A stretch of 44,795 bases of DNA from Deltaproteobacteria bacterium (GTDB taxonomy: Bacteria > Desulfobacterota > DSM-4660 > Desulfatiglandales > HGW-15), in NCBI GenBank assembly GCA_019310525.1, contig JAFDEE010000013.1:1-44795 (forward strand), written 5' to 3'. The first letter of the stretch is position 1. Every line of letters starts with the position of its first letter. The translations under genes and the position numbers were made by a program. Positions 5,533 through 44,700 of the stretch are shown piece after piece. Below the pieces are notes generated by a model. That model did no database searches. It saw only the letters and a program-made list of their open reading frames with translations, and was not told the origin of the DNA.

Positions 5533-5548
5533 TGGTATCCCTTTTGCA
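5533..5548 (+). promoter_or_regulatory. Sigma-54 promoter for the flgB operon
   Basis: TGGTATCCCTTTTGCA has GG (5534-5535) and GC (5546-5547) exactly 10 bases apart, and a strong TTTTGC -12 block. The flgB ATG is 42 bases beyond. A degenerate GTCAA-type site (GTCAAATTCCCGAC, 5435-5448) lies about 100 bp upstream inside the preceding gene. A TATAAT hexamer at 5484-5489 has no good -35 partner. Confidence 0.85.
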
Positions 5549-5590: not shown

Positions 5591-6016
5591 ATGGACAGGC
5601 TCAATGGTAAAGGTATCACGGGGAAGACCGTTTCGCTCCTGGCCCGTGCCCTGGATTTCAGGAGCGCCAATCACAACGTGATTTCCAGCAATTTGGCCAA
5701 CATCGACACCCCAGGTTTCCGGCCCAAGGAGATCAGTTTCAGCGAGGCCCTGAAACGGGAGGTGGAAAAGACGGGACTGCCCCTTCGAAAGACCGACCCG
5801 AACCATTTTTCCCATTTCACGGGAAGTCTCGACCCGGGTGAGCGGGTCTACACCATGAGGACATTAGGGAAGACCATAGTGGGTTCAAACCAGATCAACA
5901 TCGACCGCGAAATGGCCAAGATGGTGGAAAACAACCTGTTGTTCGAGGCCTCGGCCAGGTTGTTGGCCAAGAAATTCGAGGCCTTGAAACTGGCGATCGA
6001 GTCAGGAAGGAGGTAA
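5591..6016 (+). CDS. flgB: Flagellar basal-body rod protein FlgB
   Basis: FlgB forms the proximal rod in the periplasm with FlgC, FlgF and FliE. The 141-residue protein has the N-terminal rod/hook-family motif, with SSNLANIDTPGF at about 37-48, and the amphipathic C-terminal helix (about 105-140) typical of axial proteins. It has no Sec signal, as expected for a substrate of the flagellar type III apparatus. The ATG is preceded by GAAGGAGAGG. It is the first gene after the sigma-54 promoter at 5533, and flgC starts 6 bases after its stop. Confidence 0.97.
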   Translation: MDRLNGKGITGKTVSLLARALDFRSANHNVISSNLANIDTPGFRPKEISFSEALKREVEKTGLPLRKTDPNHFSHFTGSLDPGERVYTMRTLGKTIVGSNQINIDREMAKMVENNLLFEASARLLAKKFEALKLAIESGRR

Positions 6017-12610: not shown

Positions 12611-12947
12611 GGGGGTCTTCTTTTCCGGGAATCCCCCTGCCCCGTCCCCATGTGATTTCCCGCTGATCCCCAACCGACCACCTGACCTTCCACCCCATCC
12701 GACCTTGAAATGGGCGATCCTTTCTACACCCGCCCAGTAACGGGCCTCACCCAGGTGATAAGGAAATTTTTACCTACCTGCCTGCAGCGTACGGCCAAAT
12801 TTTTCCCTGCCTTCAGGTCCCTGTATCCGGCTATTGTAATGTAATTGTCTGGAATTATTAAAAATGCTGCCAAGGCTCTTCAATGGCACACCCATTGCTC
12901 ACCTGTATCTGCGAAAGGAACAGGACCAGAAGGGATAAGGAGACGCC
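12611..12947. other. Intergenic region before fliK
   Basis: No gene is seen in this 337-base gap. Directly after the MotE-like stop, G5 and C5 runs (12611-12615 and 12633-12637) could pair as a weak stem with a long loop, not a convincing terminator. An AT-rich patch (about 12830-12865) and the sigma-54 promoter at 12884 follow. No GTCAA-type palindrome as good as those at 398 and 17106 was found. Confidence 0.6.
12884..12899 (+). promoter_or_regulatory. Sigma-54 promoter for fliK-flgD-flgE
   Basis: TGGCACACCCATTGCT matches the sigma-54 consensus TGGCAC-N5-TTGCW at every defined position, with GG and GC 10 bases apart. The fliK ATG is 49 bases downstream, behind the ribosome site AAGGAGA. 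It would start a hook operon that ends at the terminator at 16948. Confidence 0.88.
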
Positions 12948-14699
12948 ATGCAACAGGTCGCTCAAATGATGATGTCCCTCGCCATAACGGGAGGAGACAA
13001 ACCGGCGGGCATGCGGAAAACTCCCCAGGAGATCGGAAACGGCCTCTTCAAGACTTTTCTCACCAGAGGCGGTGAATCCCTCTTTTCTGAAAAGGGCGCC
13101 CGATCTGTCGTAGGTGACGGGGGAAAGAGGGGTGCCCGGGGCTCCGACCCCCTGAAGATGCTGGAGGACATCCTGAAATACGTGGGAATGCCCACTTCAC
13201 AATTCAGGCTGCCTCCCGGGGTCACCCCACAGCTCATCCATTTCCTGGAAAAGAGGGGCCTCAGTCGGGAAGAAATCAGCAGGCTCCTCCAGTCAGCCAC
13301 GGATGCAGACGGAATGATCCAAATGGATCGCCTCTTGGCAGGGCTTGGGAAGGGACTGGAAAGGCAAGGGGATGCCGTCCCCGAGCTGATCGTGGAGATG
13401 GATCGGGTGCCCGAGGTGGAGTCCCTCCTCTTCAAGCTGGGTTTCGGCGTCGAAGACGTCAAGAAGATGATGGAGAATTCGGTGAGGGAGGGGGAAGGTC
13501 TATCTTTGTCCAGGCTCTCCAGGGAACTCGGCGGGAGGATCCCCGGGTTTTCCTCTGAGAAGGAAATCGCGGCCTTCCTCAGTGAGCAGGGAATCAAGAG
13601 CCGTCCTCGGGTATTAGGTGACTCTCTTGGTCTGGAGGTCGAGAAAAAGATCAAAGCCTTTTCCGATGTGACCCCGGAGGAGCTTCAACAGAAGGTCAAA
13701 AGTGAGATAGCCGGGATCCTGAGGCGGAAAGGCGTGCCTCCCGAGGAAGTCAAGGCCTTCCTTGAAAGACTCTCGATAAAGACCCACAGCGGGAATTCGC
13801 GGGCGGAGGATCCGCTAAACGCCTCAACCAGGGGCAAGGGAGCGAGCGAGGCAGAGGCCATGAACCTCTTGAGCCAGGTGGTGATCAAGCCCCGTTCCGA
13901 CCAGCGCCCCGGGGGGTGGCAGAAGAGGATCATGGAGATCCTGAGACAGGAGAACCTGGCCGGGAATTTCGGTCAACCGGTGGAAACCCCGGAGGATGAA
14001 GGCCATGTGCTGCGTTCCGCCATCGCCGAGTGGATCAAGGGGGGCAAGGCGGGACAGATGATCTCTGATCTCCAAGGGGAAAGGGTCCCCTGGACCGCCG
14101 GGCGGCCGATCCTTCAGGGGAAGGCGGAAACCCATGGCGGGCGGACAAAAGGTCGAACGACCGGCGTCAAGGATTTTATCGAAGTGAGGAATGCAGCCGG
14201 GAATGATCTTCAGGGGAGCAGGGAGATCAATGGAATCCGGGAAGGTGGAACCTTGAATTCCTCCAGGGAGACCGGCGGATTGCCCCATCCCCTTCCAAGG
14301 ATCGTTGAAAAGATCGGCCTCATGATACGGGGCGGTGAGCAGCGGGGCAGTATCCGGATCTCTCCTCCCGAACTGGGCCGCCTGGAGGTGGAGCTCGTGA
14401 TCAAGCAGGGACATGTACATGCAAACCTGAGCACAGAGAATCCCATGGTGAAAGAGATCATAGAGGCCAACCTCCATCATCTCAGGCAGCAATTGACCGA
14501 GCAGGGTTTTATCGTCGAAAAATTCGAGGTCATGGTGGGATTGGGGGATCGTCAAGAGCGCGAAAGGAACGACTGGATGGCGGGGGGAAGCGGACGCAGG
14601 CGGAGATCTTTCGGGCAGACAGGGGAGGAGCCGGCCCTTTCTCCGGTGATCCAGGATACGGTCGTCTCGGAGGACGGCCAGGTGAGCGTCCACGTGTGA
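12948..14699 (+). CDS. fliK: Flagellar hook-length control protein FliK
   Basis: FliK is an exported ruler that measures the hook and flips FlhB specificity from hook to filament substrates. The 583-residue protein has the FliK C-terminal domain at about 447-535, including GSIRISPPELGRLEVELVI and ANLHHLRQQLTEQGF. The N-terminal half is unusual: helical units of about 37-40 residues recur near 96-134, 156-193 and 254-275, with shared patterns such as FLEKRGLSREEISRLLQ, FKLGFGVEDVKKMMEN and LRRKGVPPEEVKAFLE. FliK N-termini are normally disordered and variable. It lies directly upstream of flgD and flgE, behind a sigma-54 promoter. Confidence 0.93.
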   Translation: MQQVAQMMMSLAITGGDKPAGMRKTPQEIGNGLFKTFLTRGGESLFSEKGARSVVGDGGKRGARGSDPLKMLEDILKYVGMPTSQFRLPPGVTPQLIHFLEKRGLSREEISRLLQSATDADGMIQMDRLLAGLGKGLERQGDAVPELIVEMDRVPEVESLLFKLGFGVEDVKKMMENSVREGEGLSLSRLSRELGGRIPGFSSEKEIAAFLSEQGIKSRPRVLGDSLGLEVEKKIKAFSDVTPEELQQKVKSEIAGILRRKGVPPEEVKAFLERLSIKTHSGNSRAEDPLNASTRGKGASEAEAMNLLSQVVIKPRSDQRPGGWQKRIMEILRQENLAGNFGQPVETPEDEGHVLRSAIAEWIKGGKAGQMISDLQGERVPWTAGRPILQGKAETHGGRTKGRTTGVKDFIEVRNAAGNDLQGSREINGIREGGTLNSSRETGGLPHPLPRIVEKIGLMIRGGEQRGSIRISPPELGRLEVELVIKQGHVHANLSTENPMVKEIIEANLHHLRQQLTEQGFIVEKFEVMVGLGDRQERERNDWMAGGSGRRRRSFGQTGEEPALSPVIQDTVVSEDGQVSVHV

Positions 14700-17248: not shown

Positions 17249-17264
17249 TGGCACAGAGGTTGCT
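17249..17264 (+). promoter_or_regulatory. Sigma-54 promoter for motA-fliL-fliM...fliA
   Basis: TGGCACAGAGGTTGCT is a full consensus -24/-12 element, with GG (17250-17251) and GC (17262-17263) 10 bases apart. The motA ATG lies about 108 bases downstream. The genes that follow are closely spaced on the same strand through fliA, so this is probably the main promoter of the export-gate and sigma-28 operon. Confidence 0.88.
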
Positions 17265-18203: not shown

Positions 18204-18734
18204 ATGGCTGAGAAAGAAGAAAAGGACAGGACGGAAGAATCACCGGAAGGGGGTGGGGAAGAGACCCAGAAGAAGGGTCTCCCCCTCAAGTTGATCATCA
18301 TCGTGGGTCTGCTTGTGCTCCTTCTGGCCGGAGGAGCAATCGCCTGGAAGGGAGGGATGCTTGATCGATTCACGGGAGGGGCGGAAAAGGCCGCCGAAAC
18401 GAAGAAGGTCGTGGAAGCGGGGAAGAGCGATATCGGGCCCATCTATTCCTTGGATACCTTCATCGTCAACCTGGTGGATCCCCAGGGAAAAAAGTACCTG
18501 AAAGTGAAAATGGAGTTGGAACTGAGTTCCGAGGAGTTGAGAATGGAGGTGGAGAAAAGACTCCCCCAGTTCAAGGACACCATTATCACACTGCTGAGCA
18601 GCAAGACCTACGAGGACGTCAGCTCACTGGAGGGAAAACTCCAGTTGCGGGCCGAACTGATGGCCATGCTCAACCAGTACCTGACCTCCGGGTCGATAGT
18701 GAATATCTACTTTACCGAATTTATCGTTCAATAG
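18204..18734 (+). CDS. fliL: Flagellar basal body-associated protein FliL
   Basis: FliL is a single-pass inner-membrane protein that surrounds and supports the stator. The 176-residue product has a charged cytoplasmic N-terminus (about 1-30), one membrane helix (LIIIVGLLVLLLAGGAIAW) and a periplasmic FliL domain. The classic end is present: FKDTIITLLSSKTYEDVSSL, then SIVNIYFTEFIVQ. It lies directly between motA and fliM. Two other FliL-type proteins are encoded at 28618 and on the minus strand at 44290; this one is the canonical copy. Confidence 0.96.
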   Translation: MAEKEEKDRTEESPEGGGEETQKKGLPLKLIIIVGLLVLLLAGGAIAWKGGMLDRFTGGAEKAAETKKVVEAGKSDIGPIYSLDTFIVNLVDPQGKKYLKVKMELELSSEELRMEVEKRLPQFKDTIITLLSSKTYEDVSSLEGKLQLRAELMAMLNQYLTSGSIVNIYFTEFIVQ

Positions 18735-28617: not shown

Positions 28618-29205
28618 ATGAGCGAAGACGATAAAAAGGATAAGCCCATTCCCGGGGAAGATGACGAAACGGGGGACATAAGTGAACGCGGCGAAACCCG
28701 GGGAGAGACACCGGAGGACAAGTCGAGACCCGGAAGATTGAAAAGGTGGACTTCATCACTGAGGAGGAGGCCTTGGATAACGGTGGGGGTCGCTACTTTC
28801 CTTTTTCTCGGTGTGGGCTTGGGTGTCACTGTTACCCAGGGAAAGAGGATAATCCCCGGCGAAACGATCCGAGCGGCGGTGTCCCCGCACCTGAAGGACC
28901 CGGGCAAGGATTACTACGAAGAAAAATTGAGACCTCTACTGCTTCCCTTGCCTTCAGGTTCGGAGAATCAGGCTGTGCTGATAAAGTTTTCGGTCATCTG
29001 GGACGGGTTGGCATCTTTTCGTTACCGGGCACTTGAACTCCAGATCCGAAACCGACTTTACACACACATGAAAAGCCTTGTAGCCCGAGAACAGGACCCA
29101 CAGGACAAAACCCCGCTTCTTGAAGCTGAGATGAGCAGGATCCTGAGGGAATCCCTGGGAACAGGAGACTTGGCGATCAAGATCAAAGAGGTCAAGGGGA
29201 TATAG
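28618..29205 (+). CDS. FliL-like membrane protein (second copy)
   Basis: This 195-residue protein has a long acidic, lysine-rich cytoplasmic N-terminus (about 1-40), one membrane helix (about 57-76, ITVGVATFLFLGVGLGVTVT) and a periplasmic part of about 115 residues. Size, topology and location in a flagellar operon fit FliL-type proteins, and the periplasmic segment has similar beta then helix spacing (QAVLIKFSVIWDGLASFRYR, then LEAEMSRILRESLG). The sequence is divergent: the typical C-terminal YFTEF is absent. The ATG follows AAGGAC, 30 bases after fliA. The FliL relation is moderate inference; the gene itself is well supported. Confidence 0.6.
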   Translation: MSEDDKKDKPIPGEDDETGDISERGETRGETPEDKSRPGRLKRWTSSLRRRPWITVGVATFLFLGVGLGVTVTQGKRIIPGETIRAAVSPHLKDPGKDYYEEKLRPLLLPLPSGSENQAVLIKFSVIWDGLASFRYRALELQIRNRLYTHMKSLVAREQDPQDKTPLLEAEMSRILRESLGTGDLAIKIKEVKGI

Positions 29206-29248
29206 GGTCCCCGCGGCAAGACTTCCCGGCTGACAAGGAGGACATCCT

Positions 29249-29530
29249 ATGAGTTTCACGGGAACCGGTGGGCCGAAGGCCGTCTTGCCCGTCGCTGAGA
29301 GGATTTGGGCGGTACAGAAGAAGGGGAAGACCGATGAGAGGCGCCGGAGGAAGAACGGAAGAGAAGAATATGAGAAACGGGGCAAGGACGGGGAAGACCA
29401 GAAGGAACGCCACAGGGATACACCCCATAAAGGGGAAGAGAGTAAGGTTGAACAGGTGGAAGAGGATGTCGGATACGGTGCGGCCAAACCGAAGAAACGC
29501 ACGAGTGGAAAAGTCGATCTGGTAATTTGA
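29249..29530 (+). CDS. Small highly charged protein of unknown function
   Basis: The 93-residue product is rich in Lys, Arg, Glu and Asp, with no membrane helix or signal peptide, and is probably largely disordered. It starts SFTGTGGPKAVLPVAERIWA and ends in KVDLVI. The start is well supported by AAGGAGG, 7 bases before the ATG. I do not recognise a family. It sits between the FliL-like gene and a DUF2802-like gene, 44 and 13 bases from its neighbours, so it is probably part of the same transcript. Confidence 0.65.
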   Translation: MSFTGTGGPKAVLPVAERIWAVQKKGKTDERRRRKNGREEYEKRGKDGEDQKERHRDTPHKGEESKVEQVEEDVGYGAAKPKKRTSGKVDLVI

Positions 29531-29543
29531 GAGACCTTTGTTT

Positions 29544-30014
29544 ATGGAAACCCAAGTCTGGTTCGTCCTGCAGATTGTCCTTGATCTGGTCATGGTGGTG
29601 CTGCTGCTGTGGTTTTTGAAATTCCAGTCCAAGCGAAGGATATCGTGGCGGGAACAGGAGGCCCTCATCAATCGTTCCGAATCCATCCTGTCGGAGATGA
29701 AGGAGATATCCAGAGCACTCGAAGAAAACCTCGAAGAGAAGAGGATCTTGAGCAAACGGATACTGGAACGGCTCGATCAAGGACTCAAGCGGGCGGAGGA
29801 GAGCTGCAAGCAGATCACGGAACTTCTTCCCAAGACCGGGAGTGGAATTTCGGGGAATTCGGGTTCGCTCGAAATGGGGAGAAGGGAAAGAGATTCCATC
29901 CGTTCGCTCCTGAAAAGGGGGCTTTCCAAGGAGGAAATTGCGCGTCATCTGGGTATCTCCGTCGGGGAAATCGAGTTGATGCTCAAGCTCGACCCGGAAA
30001 GGACTGAATCTTAA
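29544..30014 (+). CDS. Membrane-anchored coiled-coil protein, DUF2802-like
   Basis: The ATG at 29544 gives 156 residues; a TTG 6 bases earlier is an alternative. An N-terminal membrane helix (about 6-25) is followed by a charged coiled coil (about 35-92) and a C-terminal helix-turn-helix-like segment (SLLKRGLSKEEIARHLGISV, then GEIELMLKL). This shape matches DUF2802-type proteins found in flagellar or chemotaxis clusters, from recollection of the architecture. It could link a membrane site to a cytoplasmic partner; DNA binding is possible but untested. It is followed by a gap of about 200 bases. Confidence 0.7.
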   Translation: METQVWFVLQIVLDLVMVVLLLWFLKFQSKRRISWREQEALINRSESILSEMKEISRALEENLEEKRILSKRILERLDQGLKRAEESCKQITELLPKTGSGISGNSGSLEMGRRERDSIRSLLKRGLSKEEIARHLGISVGEIELMLKLDPERTES

Positions 30015-30215
30015 GGCTCTCTCCCATCTCCTTTCACCTTTCCCGCACACCCCACCGGTCATTCGGCTGAAGATTTGATAAGTCAACCTTCCTCATTTAT
30101 GCTCTCCGGTTTCTTCCGCTCTGTCGGGAGAAGGATCGTTTCGGAACGCCCATAGGATCCAGGGGAGGAAGGGGCTGGGGCCTGGTGAAGTGGAATAGGT
30201 GGAGAATCCTCGGTG

Positions 30216-31301
30216 ATGTTTCGGGAAATAACGAAAGCAAATAACCTGCTGAGTGGGTTCAAGTCCGGGAAAGGTCACAGGGGAGCGCCTTTCAGGGCCG
30301 GAGAGATATTTACGGGAAGGGTGATAAAAGGATTACGGGGAGGGGAATTTCTTGTGTCGGCCCGTGGGAACCGCTTCCGTGCCCACGCGCGCATCGCACT
30401 GGCCGAAGGGAGGAGTTACAGGTTCCAGGTAAGGTGCGCTGGACCCAGGGTCGAGTTGAAGGTGGTGACCCCTGGACCTGACAGGCCCTTAAACCTCCTA
30501 TCGGGAAGAATAAGTGGCGGGGCTAGCCGGGAAAGACTGCCTGCTCTCCTCAGGGAGATCGTTGCGGCCCGGGACTGGAAGGGCATCTCGCCTTCCCTTA
30601 GGGAAGGTCTGCTGGAATTGAACCGCCTCTTAGCTTCCGTGATCTTCAAAGGATCCGGGAACGTCGGGGTTTCGTGGTTTGCGGAGTACCTTTTCAGGAG
30701 CGGGCTTTTTTGGGAGGGAAAGGTGGCCCGCCTACTCCTGGAGGGCCGGAAGATTGATCGAAACAAGTTGCTTCAAGGTGACCTGAAGGGCATTCTTCTG
30801 CGCCTGGAAAAGGATCTGAACGTGCTCGAGGGATGGAGCAAAGAGACAAAAGATCTTGCCCTCAAAATAAGAGAGGCCTTGCGGTTCATAGAACAGGATC
30901 AGTTTTTGAATCTTGCCTCCATAAAGGAGGCGGGTGGATGGTTTCTCTTCCTTCCCATAATGGGGGAGCGGGACTTCCATGGGGGCGAGTTGCTCGTTAA
31001 GGAACCGAAAGGAGAGGATGGAATCATCCGGTTTCATCTTTCCCTTGAGTTCAGTGAATTGGGTCCCATGGAAGTTTCGGTCTCGATCCTGGGAGGCATC
31101 CTGGACGCCCGGATCCTGGCAGCGGACGAGCGACGCCTTAAGATCCTCCAGGATAACCTTTCATTGCTGGAAAAGGGCCTGAGGAAAAAGGGATTGCAGC
31201 CGGGAACCCTGTCTTGCGGGATCCGGGGGGAAGAAGATGCGGGCAGGGTTTCAACGGAGCAGACTCGCGGGTCGACTCCGGGCGTGGACCTATCGGTATG
31301 A
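30216..31301 (+). CDS. FliK-like hook-length control domain protein (second)
   Basis: The ATG at 30216 gives 361 residues; GTG 30213 adds one and is closer to the GGAGA site at 30201-30205. The C-terminal segment (about 240-345) has a FliK/Flg_hook pattern: FHLSLEFSELGPMEVSVSIL, then DNLSLLEKGLRKKGLQPGTL. The N-terminal part (about 25-90) looks like a small beta barrel, with GRVIKGLRGGEFLVSARGNR. No signal peptide is seen. The canonical fliK is at 12948. This copy lies upstream of a stand-alone FlhB C-domain (31363), an arrangement like the Bacillus ylqG-ylqH pair as I recall it. Confidence 0.7.
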   Translation: MFREITKANNLLSGFKSGKGHRGAPFRAGEIFTGRVIKGLRGGEFLVSARGNRFRAHARIALAEGRSYRFQVRCAGPRVELKVVTPGPDRPLNLLSGRISGGASRERLPALLREIVAARDWKGISPSLREGLLELNRLLASVIFKGSGNVGVSWFAEYLFRSGLFWEGKVARLLLEGRKIDRNKLLQGDLKGILLRLEKDLNVLEGWSKETKDLALKIREALRFIEQDQFLNLASIKEAGGWFLFLPIMGERDFHGGELLVKEPKGEDGIIRFHLSLEFSELGPMEVSVSILGGILDARILAADERRLKILQDNLSLLEKGLRKKGLQPGTLSCGIRGEEDAGRVSTEQTRGSTPGVDLSV

Positions 31302-31362
31302 ACAGAGCCTCGGGACTTTTTTGCTTATAGGGGGAGGGAAAATCGTCCAAGGGGGATTTCAG

Positions 31363-31641
31363 ATGTCCCGGAAGGAGCGAAAGAAGGCCGTCGCCCTCAA
31401 GTATGATGCCGTTAAGGACAATGCTCCCAAGGTGACGGCCAAGGGCGGGGGACTCATTGCAGAACGTATCATTGAACTGGCCGGGCAGGCGGGGATTCCC
31501 ATCCGGGAAGACCCGGATTTGGTGGGTGCCCTCATGGAATTGGATTTACTGGATGAGATTCCTCCCGAACTTTACCAGGCCGTGGCCGAGATCCTGGCCT
31601 TCGCCTATCGTCTCAACCGCAGGATGAAAGAGGGTGGCTAG
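31363..31641 (+). CDS. FlhX: stand-alone FlhB C-terminal domain paralogue
   Basis: The ATG at 31363, 7 bases after AAGGGGG, gives 92 residues. The protein aligns by eye with the part of FlhB after its cleavage site: KKAVALKYD corresponds to HLAVALRYE, AERIIELAGQAGIPI to AHRIREVAEENGVPV, and IPPELYQAVAEILAFAY to IPSEFYQAVAEILAYVY. There are no membrane helices and no NPTH motif. Such FlhX proteins can partly replace the FlhB C-domain in Helicobacter. It overlaps no gene but sits directly after a FliK-like gene, suggesting a paired role. Confidence 0.88.
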   Translation: MSRKERKKAVALKYDAVKDNAPKVTAKGGGLIAERIIELAGQAGIPIREDPDLVGALMELDLLDEIPPELYQAVAEILAFAYRLNRRMKEGG

Positions 31642-31741
31642 AGAAGTCCGGTTCCTGGAATTTTCCGCACTTTGCCGTGAGGCTCGTTTTTGCAGAGCCG
31701 TCAGAGGCCTTAAAAAAGCCGATATCAGGGGGTATGCCGCC

Positions 31742-32056
31742 ATGGCGAGAAGAATTGCTGTTACGATTCTTTGTCTTTCTTTTTTCATGCTCATTCCTTC
31801 ATCCCTGTGTGCGGGCCTGAGTGCATTCCAATTCAAGATCATCAAGATCGCCTTTATGAACGGGTATGTAAGGGCACTCAGGACGGACGACCGATCCCTC
31901 CGGATCCTGAGAGAGAACCGGGACATCATGGAGCGGGTGGTGAAGGCGGAGGCCGAAAAATACATGGCCGAAGTTTCAGCCATGAACCAGACGAACCCCG
32001 CTTCCGGACCTTCTCCCTTTTCAGGGGAGACTTTCAAAGGAACCTCCGATTGGTAG
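31742..32056 (+). CDS. Small exported protein of unknown function
   Basis: The ATG at 31742 gives 104 residues; a GTG at 31634, overlapping the previous stop, would add a basic leader that spoils the signal peptide. Residues 1-20 look like a Sec signal (RRIAVTILCLSFFMLIPSSL then CAG). A cysteine lies at the end of that stretch (LCA), so a lipoprotein cannot be excluded, although the lipobox is poor. The mature part is helical and charged (FKIIKIAFMNGYVRALRTDD), with a Ser/Pro/Thr-rich tail. No family is recognised. It is the last gene before the flgF regulatory gap. Confidence 0.65.
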   Translation: MARRIAVTILCLSFFMLIPSSLCAGLSAFQFKIIKIAFMNGYVRALRTDDRSLRILRENRDIMERVVKAEAEKYMAEVSAMNQTNPASGPSPFSGETFKGTSDW

Positions 32057-32353: not shown

Positions 32354-32369
32354 TGGTATGGGAATTGCT
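32354..32369 (+). promoter_or_regulatory. Sigma-54 promoter for the flgF operon
   Basis: TGGTATGGGAATTGCT has GG (32355-32356) and GC (32367-32368) exactly 10 bases apart, with a strong ATTGCT -12 block. The flgF ATG is 51 bases downstream, the same range as at the other sigma-54 units in the window. Confidence 0.82.
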
Positions 32370-37023: not shown

Positions 37024-37049
37024 AAAGCTTGAGAGAGAAGAAGGAGAAG

Positions 37050-37826
37050 ATGAAAGGACCAGCAGTAAATGACCTTGGAATCGCCCACCCCGGGATGAAA
37101 GGTGAGCAGGTGAAGACGGAAAGGGACCGGGCCCTCATGAAAGCCTGCCGGGAGTTCGAGTCCATCCTGACCTATCAACTGCTGAAGAGCATGCGGCGTA
37201 CCGTTGAGAAATGTGAACTCTTTCACGGGGGCCAGGGCGAGGAAATCTATGAGTCCCTGCTGGACCAGGAACTTGCCAGGAATATCGCACAATCGGAATC
37301 CAACAGCCTTGCTTACCTCCTCTACCAACAGCTCAAGAGAAAGGACAGGGTGGACCTGGAAGCCGGAACCCCTCCTTCACCAATGCCTCTCCCCCTCCGA
37401 AACCGTTACGGAGAGATCCCATTGACGCCCCTTGAGACGGCCCGGGAATCCTCTGGATTCGGGTGGCGGAAGGACCCCTTCACCGGGGAGAGGAAGTTTC
37501 ACTACGGGGTGGATCTCGCCGCCCGGGAAGGGACTATGGTGCGGGCCGCCCTCGGCGGAAAGGTTGTGGCCAGCGAATACCGCGAGGGATACGGGAACGT
37601 CGTGATCCTGGACCATGGAAAGGGGCTCAGGACCCTGTATGCCCACAACAAGGAAAACCTGGTGGAGGTCGGGGAATGGATTTCCAGGGGGTGCCCCGTG
37701 GCACGGGTAGGGTCCACGGGCCGAAGTACGGGACCACATCTGCACTTCGAGGTCAGACGGGAAGGAAAACCCCTGAACCCTGAAGCCTTCCTGAAAGAAG
37801 GGACCGCCAGGGTGGGCCGGGTTTAG
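37050..37826 (+). CDS. flgJ: FlgJ-type rod-binding protein fused to M23 peptidase
   Basis: FlgJ caps the growing rod and opens the peptidoglycan. The 258-residue protein has an N-terminal rod-binding domain (about 25-98), with ACREFESILTYQLLKSMRRT and EIYESLLDQELARNIAQSES. In place of the usual muramidase, residues 135-250 form an M23 (LytM-type) metallopeptidase: HYGVD (H151, D155), H199 in LYAHN, and HLHFE (H230, H232), all zinc/catalytic positions kept. No Sec signal is seen, so export is probably by the flagellar apparatus. It would cleave peptide cross-links rather than glycans. ATG 37050 follows AAGGAG closely. Confidence 0.9.
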   Translation: MKGPAVNDLGIAHPGMKGEQVKTERDRALMKACREFESILTYQLLKSMRRTVEKCELFHGGQGEEIYESLLDQELARNIAQSESNSLAYLLYQQLKRKDRVDLEAGTPPSPMPLPLRNRYGEIPLTPLETARESSGFGWRKDPFTGERKFHYGVDLAAREGTMVRAALGGKVVASEYREGYGNVVILDHGKGLRTLYAHNKENLVEVGEWISRGCPVARVGSTGRSTGPHLHFEVRREGKPLNPEAFLKEGTARVGRV

Positions 37827-43585: not shown

Positions 43586-43605
43586 AGTGATTGGAGGTAA
43601 AACCC

Positions 43606-43914
43606 ATGATCACCACATACCAGATACGAAACGTGTTGCGTGTTTACGGTGATCAACTCAAGAGGAGAAACACGATCATTCAGGAAGGGTTGAAGTCTTC
43701 CGAGCAGCCATACGACATGGTCAGTATTTCCATGGATGCCCGGAGAAAACAGATGATCAGCGAGATGTCCGGCCGTCTGATCTCCCAACTCACTCCTAAG
43801 GATCACCGGGAGGAGAACGAGGAAAAGGATTCCCCGGATAGTCGGGTTCATGCGGAAAGAGACGAATCCGATCGCGAAAACCCATTGTTGGAGAACAGGT
43901 ATGAAAATAGATGA
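43606..43914 (+). CDS. FlgM-associated small protein, DVU0524-like
   Basis: The ATG at 43606, after TTGGAGGT, gives 102 residues. It starts ITTYQIRNVLRVYGDQLKRR and has YDMVSISMDARRKQMISEMS, then a polar tail with many Glu, Asp and Arg. Small proteins of this kind precede flgM in Desulfovibrio-type genomes (the DVU0524 family, from memory). No membrane helix is seen. It overlaps flgM by 14 bases and shares its FliA promoter, so a link to FlgM-FliA control or late export is likely but unproven. Confidence 0.75.
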   Translation: MITTYQIRNVLRVYGDQLKRRNTIIQEGLKSSEQPYDMVSISMDARRKQMISEMSGRLISQLTPKDHREENEEKDSPDSRVHAERDESDRENPLLENRYENR

Positions 43915-44221
43915 CGGTTATAATAACAGGATACTATTCGATAGCGCCCGTGAAGCATCAGCGAGGAGAAGGGCTGAAGAACAGGAGCCCCAGTCCACTG
44001 GCGGCGAAGAAAAGAGGGTGTCCGGAACCGAAGTGGATCTTTCCAAGACATCGGTGGATTTCAGCAAGGCCGCCGAGGCCCTTGAAAAAGACGCCGTTGC
44101 GCGCGCGGAGAAGGTAGATCGGATAAAGACCATGATGGAAGCCGGTACCTACGAGATTGATTCCAAAAAAGTTGCGGACAAGATTCTTGAAGATGCCCTT
44201 GCCGGGTTTTTGGAGCCCTGA
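43901..44221 (+). CDS. flgM: Anti-sigma-28 factor FlgM
   Basis: FlgM binds FliA in the cytoplasm and is exported once the hook is finished. The ATG at 43901 lies behind GGAG and overlaps the previous gene by 14 bases, giving 106 residues. The N-terminal half is polar and probably disordered. The C-terminal FliA-binding part has VDRIKTMMEAGTYEIDSKKV and ADKILEDAL, matching the family. It is the last plus-strand gene, followed by a bidirectional terminator. Confidence 0.94.
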   Translation: MKIDDGYNNRILFDSAREASARRRAEEQEPQSTGGEEKRVSGTEVDLSKTSVDFSKAAEALEKDAVARAEKVDRIKTMMEAGTYEIDSKKVADKILEDALAGFLEP

Positions 44222-44289: not shown

Positions 44290-44700
44290 TCAATTATAGA
44301 AGAAACTATCAAAATAGACCGTGTCCACGGGTTTTTCCAGGTGTTTGTTGACCAACTCGATCACCTTTTTTCTAATGGAAACAAAGTCCCTTTTTTCAAA
44401 ATAAGATACCATTTCGGGATCATCCGCAGACATGAGAAGTTCGTGCTTTATCCTGGGCAGTTCCCTGATGAGGCGTTCCCGGTGCCGCTTATCCTTTGCG
44501 GGGATGGAGAAGGACAGCCTAAGGCTCTTGTCCCGGATGGTGGTGACCACCAGACATTCCACATTCCCGCCGGAGTGGCGGAAGGGCTCGAGGGTGATCT
44601 GGGGGATATGGATTTCTTCGCGGTAATTGTATAAGAATACGATGAGGCCGCCGAAGAAAATAATCAGAGATAACACAAAATAGGCTCTTCGACGTTTCAT
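44290..44700 (-). CDS. FliL-like membrane protein (third copy)
   Basis: This 136-residue minus-strand protein starts with basic residues and one membrane helix (about 7-24, YFVLSLIIFFGGLIVFLY), followed by a periplasmic domain. The C-terminus IRKKVIELVNKHLEKPVDTV then YFDSFFYN closely mirrors FliL, which ends with a helix and then IYFTEFIVQ. FliL-like is thus supported by topology, size and the C-terminal pattern, but not by strong overall similarity. The ATG overlaps the stop of the truncated upstream gene by 4 bases (ATGA), so it is the second gene of a minus-strand operon that continues beyond the window. No separate ribosome site is seen. Confidence 0.75.
   Translation of the reverse strand: MKRRRAYFVLSLIIFFGGLIVFLYNYREEIHIPQITLEPFRHSGGNVECLVVTTIRDKSLRLSFSIPAKDKRHRERLIRELPRIKHELLMSADDPEMVSYFEKRDFVSIRKKVIELVNKHLEKPVDTVYFDSFFYN

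Follow-up and report, generated by a model that had tools for sequence, protein, structure and literature searches.

In Vibrio, Pseudomonas and Shewanella, the DUF2802 protein FipA is reported as a partner of FlhF; its residues G110, E126 and L129 are fully conserved, and the Vibrio variants G110A and L129A lose FlhF binding (PMC11620751, in excerpt). SwrB acts on FliP and has been called conserved only in Bacillus (PMC4526659, in excerpt), and a survey of Campylobacterota lists FlgW and SwrB as one item (PMC9321776, in excerpt). Here we compare these proteins, and relatives of FliL, FliK and FlhB, with six open reading frames (ORFs), P1 to P6, that lie between fliA and flgF in a 44,795-nucleotide stretch of DNA (the window) from a Deltaproteobacteria bacterium (Desulfobacterota; assembly GCA_019310525.1, contig JAFDEE010000013.1, positions 1 to 44,795, forward strand).

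Judged from sequence by homology, gene order, linkage and residue matches, P1–P5 are a conserved ordered block, fliA-P1-P2-P3-P4-P5-flgF, from which P6 is excluded. We favour, with moderate confidence, the reading that P1–P5 are accessory assembly genes: P3 would act with FlhF, and perhaps with P2, in placing flagella, P1 at the stator, and P4 and P5 on the export switch. Two results appear the most useful: P2, the least promising-looking of the genes, falls in a conserved family, and P3 carries residues matching those with which FipA binds FlhF. The six ORFs are as follows.

28618–29205, + strand: P1, FliL paralogue, 195 aa, with an acidic disordered N-terminus, one transmembrane (TM) helix and a FliL-type periplasmic domain
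29249–29530, + strand: P2, a short (93 aa), charged and disordered protein; its family is defined by the C-terminal ending, here VDLVI
29544–30014, + strand: P3, FipA/SwrB-type protein, 156 aa, with an N-terminal TM helix, a coiled coil and a helix-turn-helix (HTH)-like C-terminal domain containing G126, E142 and L145
30213–31301, + strand: P4, compact FliK paralogue, 362 aa, with a Flg_hook match; the GTG start is uncertain by a few codons
31363–31641, + strand: P5, FlhX, a stand-alone FlhB cytoplasmic C-terminal domain (TIGR00789), 92 aa, without NPTH
31742–32056, + strand: P6, small exported protein, 104 aa, with homologues elsewhere; judged to be outside the block

A preliminary description of the window had reported six genes on the flagellar strand between fliA and flgF, and the ORFs are there as described, all on the + strand between the end of fliA (28587) and the start of flgF (32420). 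The good ribosome sites it mentioned are, by eye, clear and purine-rich before P2 and P5 and usable before P1, P4 and P6; the one before P3 is weak. Single-sequence family scans (Pfam, NCBIfam) of the window's P1, P2 and P6 returned no credible match. The statement that most of these genes lack a defined role goes too far: P1 is related to FliL, P3 carries the FipA residues, and P4 and P5 are members of the FliK and FlhX families. As for undescribed flagellar components, for which the block was called the best place, P2 fits best, and P1, P3, P4 and P5 have relatives with names. The observation is confirmed and its interpretation partly supported.

P3 beside FipA and SwrB

Across 27 P3 homologues, drawn from three types of locus (A, B and C, described below), the only invariant columns were G126, E142 and L145 of the window protein. 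Their spacing, G-x15-E-x2-L (16 and 3), is identical to that in FipA. P3 further resembles FipA in its size, in having a single N-terminal TM helix followed by a coiled coil (both read by eye) and a C-terminal domain, and in its place behind flhF-flhG-fliA; it differs in having the P2 gene upstream and in falling below the DUF2802 cut-off, about equally near DUF6115 (PMC11620751, in excerpt). The window protein scored 22.6 bits against Pfam DUF2802 (cut-off 33.5) and 26.1 bits against DUF6115 (cut-off 27); among the 27 members, DUF2802 matched in 26 and DUF6115 in 25 at E ≤ 0.1. Both flhF and flhG are in P3's gene string, flhF five genes upstream of P3.

DUF6115 also has matches in Bacillus subtilis, where we take the protein to be SwrB, and in Thermotoga maritima. 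Because P3 members match both DUF2802 and DUF6115, and DUF6115 also occurs in B. subtilis, these data suggest, as yet unproven, that FipA and SwrB may be one family. Such a union would mean that the literatures on polar placement and on export licensing concern one protein family, for which one mutant series could show the ancestral role. P3, anchored in the membrane, would most likely bind FlhF through its G/E/L domain, and would recruit or license early flagellar assembly at the membrane, helping to place flagella together with FlhF.

P3 might instead act like Bacillus SwrB, activating the export apparatus through FliP and not recruiting FlhF, a reading to which we give appreciable but clearly less than even weight. 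The 25 DUF6115 matches among the 27 members, in a family also found in B. subtilis, fit such a role, as do the action of SwrB on FliP (PMC4526659, in excerpt) and the joint FlgW/SwrB entry for Campylobacterota (PMC9321776, in excerpt). P3 is, however, likened to SwrB and FlgW by the DUF6115 match, which for the window protein lies below the Pfam cut-off, and not by residues; its three invariant positions match those of FipA, in a residue comparison confined to FipA, and flhF and flhG stand within the same gene string.

Gene order and linkage

We read 30 loci of the class and assigned them to type A (14 loci), type B (9) or type C (7), labels that are our own. Type A has the order fliA-P1-P2-P3-P4-P5; in the 13 loci that span fliA through P3, P1, P3, P4 and P5 were always present, and P2 in 11. 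Type B has the same order and comprises seven loci that reach P3, one whose contig ends within P3 (L112) and one ending within flhG (L111). In those seven, P2, P3 and P4 were present throughout, P5 in six (the remaining contig stops before it) and P1, by profile, in six; in locus L104, on the same contig as L134, an ORF in the P1 place was matched by a later model. Type C reads fliA-P2-P3-flgF, with P3 in all seven loci, P2 in six (a stretch of N occupies its place in the seventh) and P1, P4 and P5 in none. In types B and C, P2 was identified by its place and ending, and not by the type A profile. In locus L015 (genome G001), about 4.4 kb of other genes lie between P4 and P5 (5776–10151), with long ORFs, one of which begins like a response regulator.

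A search with the single P1 sequence found matches in 11 of 61 genomes, and a P1 profile in 21 of the 85 genomes of the class, several of them weak. The 16 genomes with a strong P1 match (E at most 4e-12) coincide exactly with the 16, among these 85, that have a close FlhF (at least 44% identity). Weak matches (E 3e-6 and weaker), many of them in the acidic N-terminus, were left out of the 16, and those of G079 and G011 are genuine type B members. The check proposed in the preliminary description, for sporadic or non-syntenic presence in relatives, was run: synteny holds for P1–P5, and P6 homologues sit elsewhere. The closest fliA in the named collection (67%) is in L126 (CP070743.1), a record titled Nitrospirota, in which no flagellar genes were recognised within 7 kb.

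Phylum-wide, P3 was found in 204 of 395 genomes, from which 40 P3 loci were chosen by hand, about one P3 match per family. For P2 we used as signature an ORF ending in [IVLF]D[ILV]x[VIAL], with F at the first place added after L199 was seen. The signature stood directly upstream of P3 in 26/40 loci, compared with 1 of 1793 other ORFs (Fisher p 6e-41), a test in which the L217 match looks like chance and L131 and L220, apparently one contig, are present in both this set and the fliA-anchored set below; the sole other signature ORF (L237) lies directly behind P3. P4 and P5 occurred together in 14 of the 40 loci, P5 without P4 in none, and P4 without P5 in three (a count that ignores where those stretches end).

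The conserved order could be mere inheritance of one large operon, its genes serving minor, unrelated functions with no step in common. Type C loci, which retain only P2 and P3, the insertion between P4 and P5 in L015, and P6, which shows that unrelated genes can enter, are all compatible with this explanation. We nevertheless think it unlikely, given that the P2-P3 pair recurs across distant families, with the P2 signature at nearly two-thirds of the P3 loci, and that the P4-P5 pair does so too, P5 never occurring without P4.

The P2 family

On the evidence of its place and ending, P2 is a real, widespread conserved family that was matched to no named family. Its members were recognised from their position and from endings such as VDLVI, IDIKV and IDIVV. 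In 80 fliA-anchored loci, 24 of them without a flagellar neighbour, the ending occurred in 17 of 5100 ORFs of 60–200 aa, and by our own reading 15 of these 17 immediately follow fliA or immediately precede P3, six of the 15 being from class genomes already read. The records of the 15 include Deltaproteobacteria, Nitrospirae, Nitrospinota, Thermodesulfobacteriaceae, KSB1 and Peptococcaceae. With the six class duplicates removed, the signature was found in 5 of 13 P3 loci and 1 of 1004 ORFs elsewhere (p 6e-9).

That P2 is a translated spacer between P1 and P3, yielding no functional protein, is very improbable: its middle is indeed of low complexity and identity between members is only 7 to 39%, but the C-terminal ending is concentrated upstream of P3 (26/40 loci against 1/1793 ORFs elsewhere), and N-terminal residues are common to members too. 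The low-complexity middle is also why annotation misses P2, a short gene that has been overlooked.

Scans of P2 members against Pfam and NCBIfam gave no match of weight, and a plasmid search with one member gave no match. A literature search, most subscription journals being beyond its reach, noticed no paper describing P2. We rejected an identity with FlgM, which has a separate gene at 43850–44221. Directly before flgM lies a small protein without a Pfam match (43591–43914, + strand). The FlgV paper describes a sigma-28 sub-module with the small protein YjfB and a 'TM + HTH' protein (PMC11607428, in excerpt). The present locus resembles it in having a small protein and a TM/HTH protein beside sigma-28, and P3 may be the latter; it differs in that P2 members have no Pfam YjfB match, a comparison made by Pfam and not by direct alignment, so that P2 as YjfB is unsupported on that scan.

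P2 is probably a small disordered partner of P3, which it would contact through its conserved C-terminal tail. We put forward tentatively, at a little under an even chance, the wider proposal that P2 is an undescribed, phylum-spanning disordered adaptor of P3, and that FipA, SwrB and FlgW descend as lineage-specific forms from a single ancestral membrane protein, in many lineages partnered by P2. For the many flagellated bacteria that are not model species, the block supplies a short, well-delimited list of candidate flagellar proteins.

FliL, FliK and FlhB relatives and the surrounding locus

P1 is a FliL paralogue. Window P1 itself had no match to Pfam FliL, and 9 of 22 family members did (best E 1.2e-8); the two P1 subgroups aligned profile to profile at E 3.3e-9. 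An AlphaFold model of P1 had a mean predicted local distance difference test score (pLDDT) of 69, with the domain from about residue 91 mostly at 70–94. VIA-align ranked three FliL domains first (Z 11.9, 11.2 and 10.7; next entry 8.7), taken from H. pylori and one other species, and Foldseek alone did not separate FliL from SPFH domains. In a 47-row tree made by a quick method (unrooted, with long branches), P1 and the main FliL fell on two sides of one branch (Shimodaira–Hasegawa-like approximate likelihood ratio 99). The main FliL lies at 18204–18734 in the window and was found in 15/16 type A genomes, G014 (74% complete) being without it. A third FliL-like protein, left out of the tree, is encoded near the window's end (44290–44700, − strand; Pfam FliL E 1.9e-4, just below cut-off). 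P1 is thus like FliL in its one TM helix and a periplasmic domain predicted to have the FliL fold, and differs in its long acidic N-terminus, in the missing Pfam match and in being additional to the main FliL. It would most likely form part of a FliL-like periplasmic ring near the stator, tuning the stator.

P4 matched Pfam Flg_hook at 40.3 bits (cut-off 29.8; E 2.9e-10). With a model of mean pLDDT 68, Foldseek gave as the two best chains the PscP switch domain (E 4e-3) and the FliK C-domain (E 5e-3); the N-terminal part and middle gave OB-like and helical-bundle matches at Z below 8, no better than common arrangements give. Since a normal FliK (12948–14699, 583 aa) and a normal FliL are present elsewhere in the window, P4 and P1 are extra copies. 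P4 shares the Flg_hook domain with FliK, but is much shorter and adjoins FlhX, and from its length we infer a role as a switch, not a ruler. P5 matched TIGR00789, the FlhB C-terminus, at E 2.1e-30 (104.7 bits, below the cut-off of 117.35) and is 52% identical to the window's FlhB over 79 residues that start directly after the FlhB NPTH. It resembles FlhX, the H. pylori 'spare part' HP1575 (title in PMC3040844, in excerpt), in being the FlhB C-domain alone. P4 and P5 would form a second FliK-FlhB-like pair, most likely acting on the export-specificity switch.

Several points weigh against the assignment of P1–P5 to accessory assembly. The absence of P1, P4 and P5 from type C loci means that the five genes are not one obligate machine; two of the 13 type A loci lack P2, and upstream of P3 the P2 signature is missing in 14 of the 40 loci. 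The full G-x15-E-x2-L pattern is present in only 33 of the 40, and 30 of 449 background ORFs contain it by chance. FipA is reported absent from Bacillus, epsilonproteobacteria and spirochaetes (PMC11620751, in excerpt), the structural matches of P4 are weak, and the proposed roles, like the physical interactions, transcription unit and phenotypes, rest on inference from sequence.

The statement that there is no clear terminator held: five terminator-like sites were found where 6.4 are expected, with one on the + strand, inside P4. A degenerate −24/−12 (sigma-54) pattern had five sites in the window compared with 0.07 expected, an expectation that is somewhat flattering since the pattern was chosen after the site at 32354 was seen; a strict pattern with two mismatches was not above chance (12 found, 14.5 expected).

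279–294, − strand: sigma-54-like site
5533–5548, + strand: sigma-54-like site before the rod gene at 5591
12884–12899, + strand: sigma-54-like site before fliK
17249–17264, + strand: sigma-54-like site before motA, matching the strict consensus exactly; possible beginning of the unit that the block closes
32354–32369, + strand: sigma-54-like site before flgF, differing at two positions from the strict consensus; possible beginning of the following unit

Two of the five sites fit the strict pattern exactly, four lie no more than 70 bases before a flagellar gene, and the window has two sigma-54 activator genes. Given these sites and the terminator result, P1–P6 would close a unit started at motA, with flgF opening the following one. 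In a flagellar transcription unit running from motA to fliA, P1–P5 would then be the accessory genes at the 3′ end.

P6 was rejected as a member of the block. Its six best homologues outside the window, in six other genomes (E ≤ 5e-7), are on other contigs than the flagellar block, and phmmer over the first ten of 13 related type A loci found no match at E 0.01. The L119 homologue has flgL- and fliW-like ORFs (identified by eye) close by, and the others sit among ORFs not recognised as flagellar. With relatives that lie away from the block in other genomes, P6 is in our view a local extra.

The window is one flagellar locus of a genome totalling 158 contigs. Around the block, Pfam identified rod proteins, FliF, FliG, FliH, FliI, FliJ, FliK, FlgD, MotA and FliN, and further FliO, FlhB, FlgH, FlgI, FlgN and FlgK. 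At 37029–37826 (+ strand), a rod-binding (FlgJ-like) domain is fused with a peptidase M23 domain.

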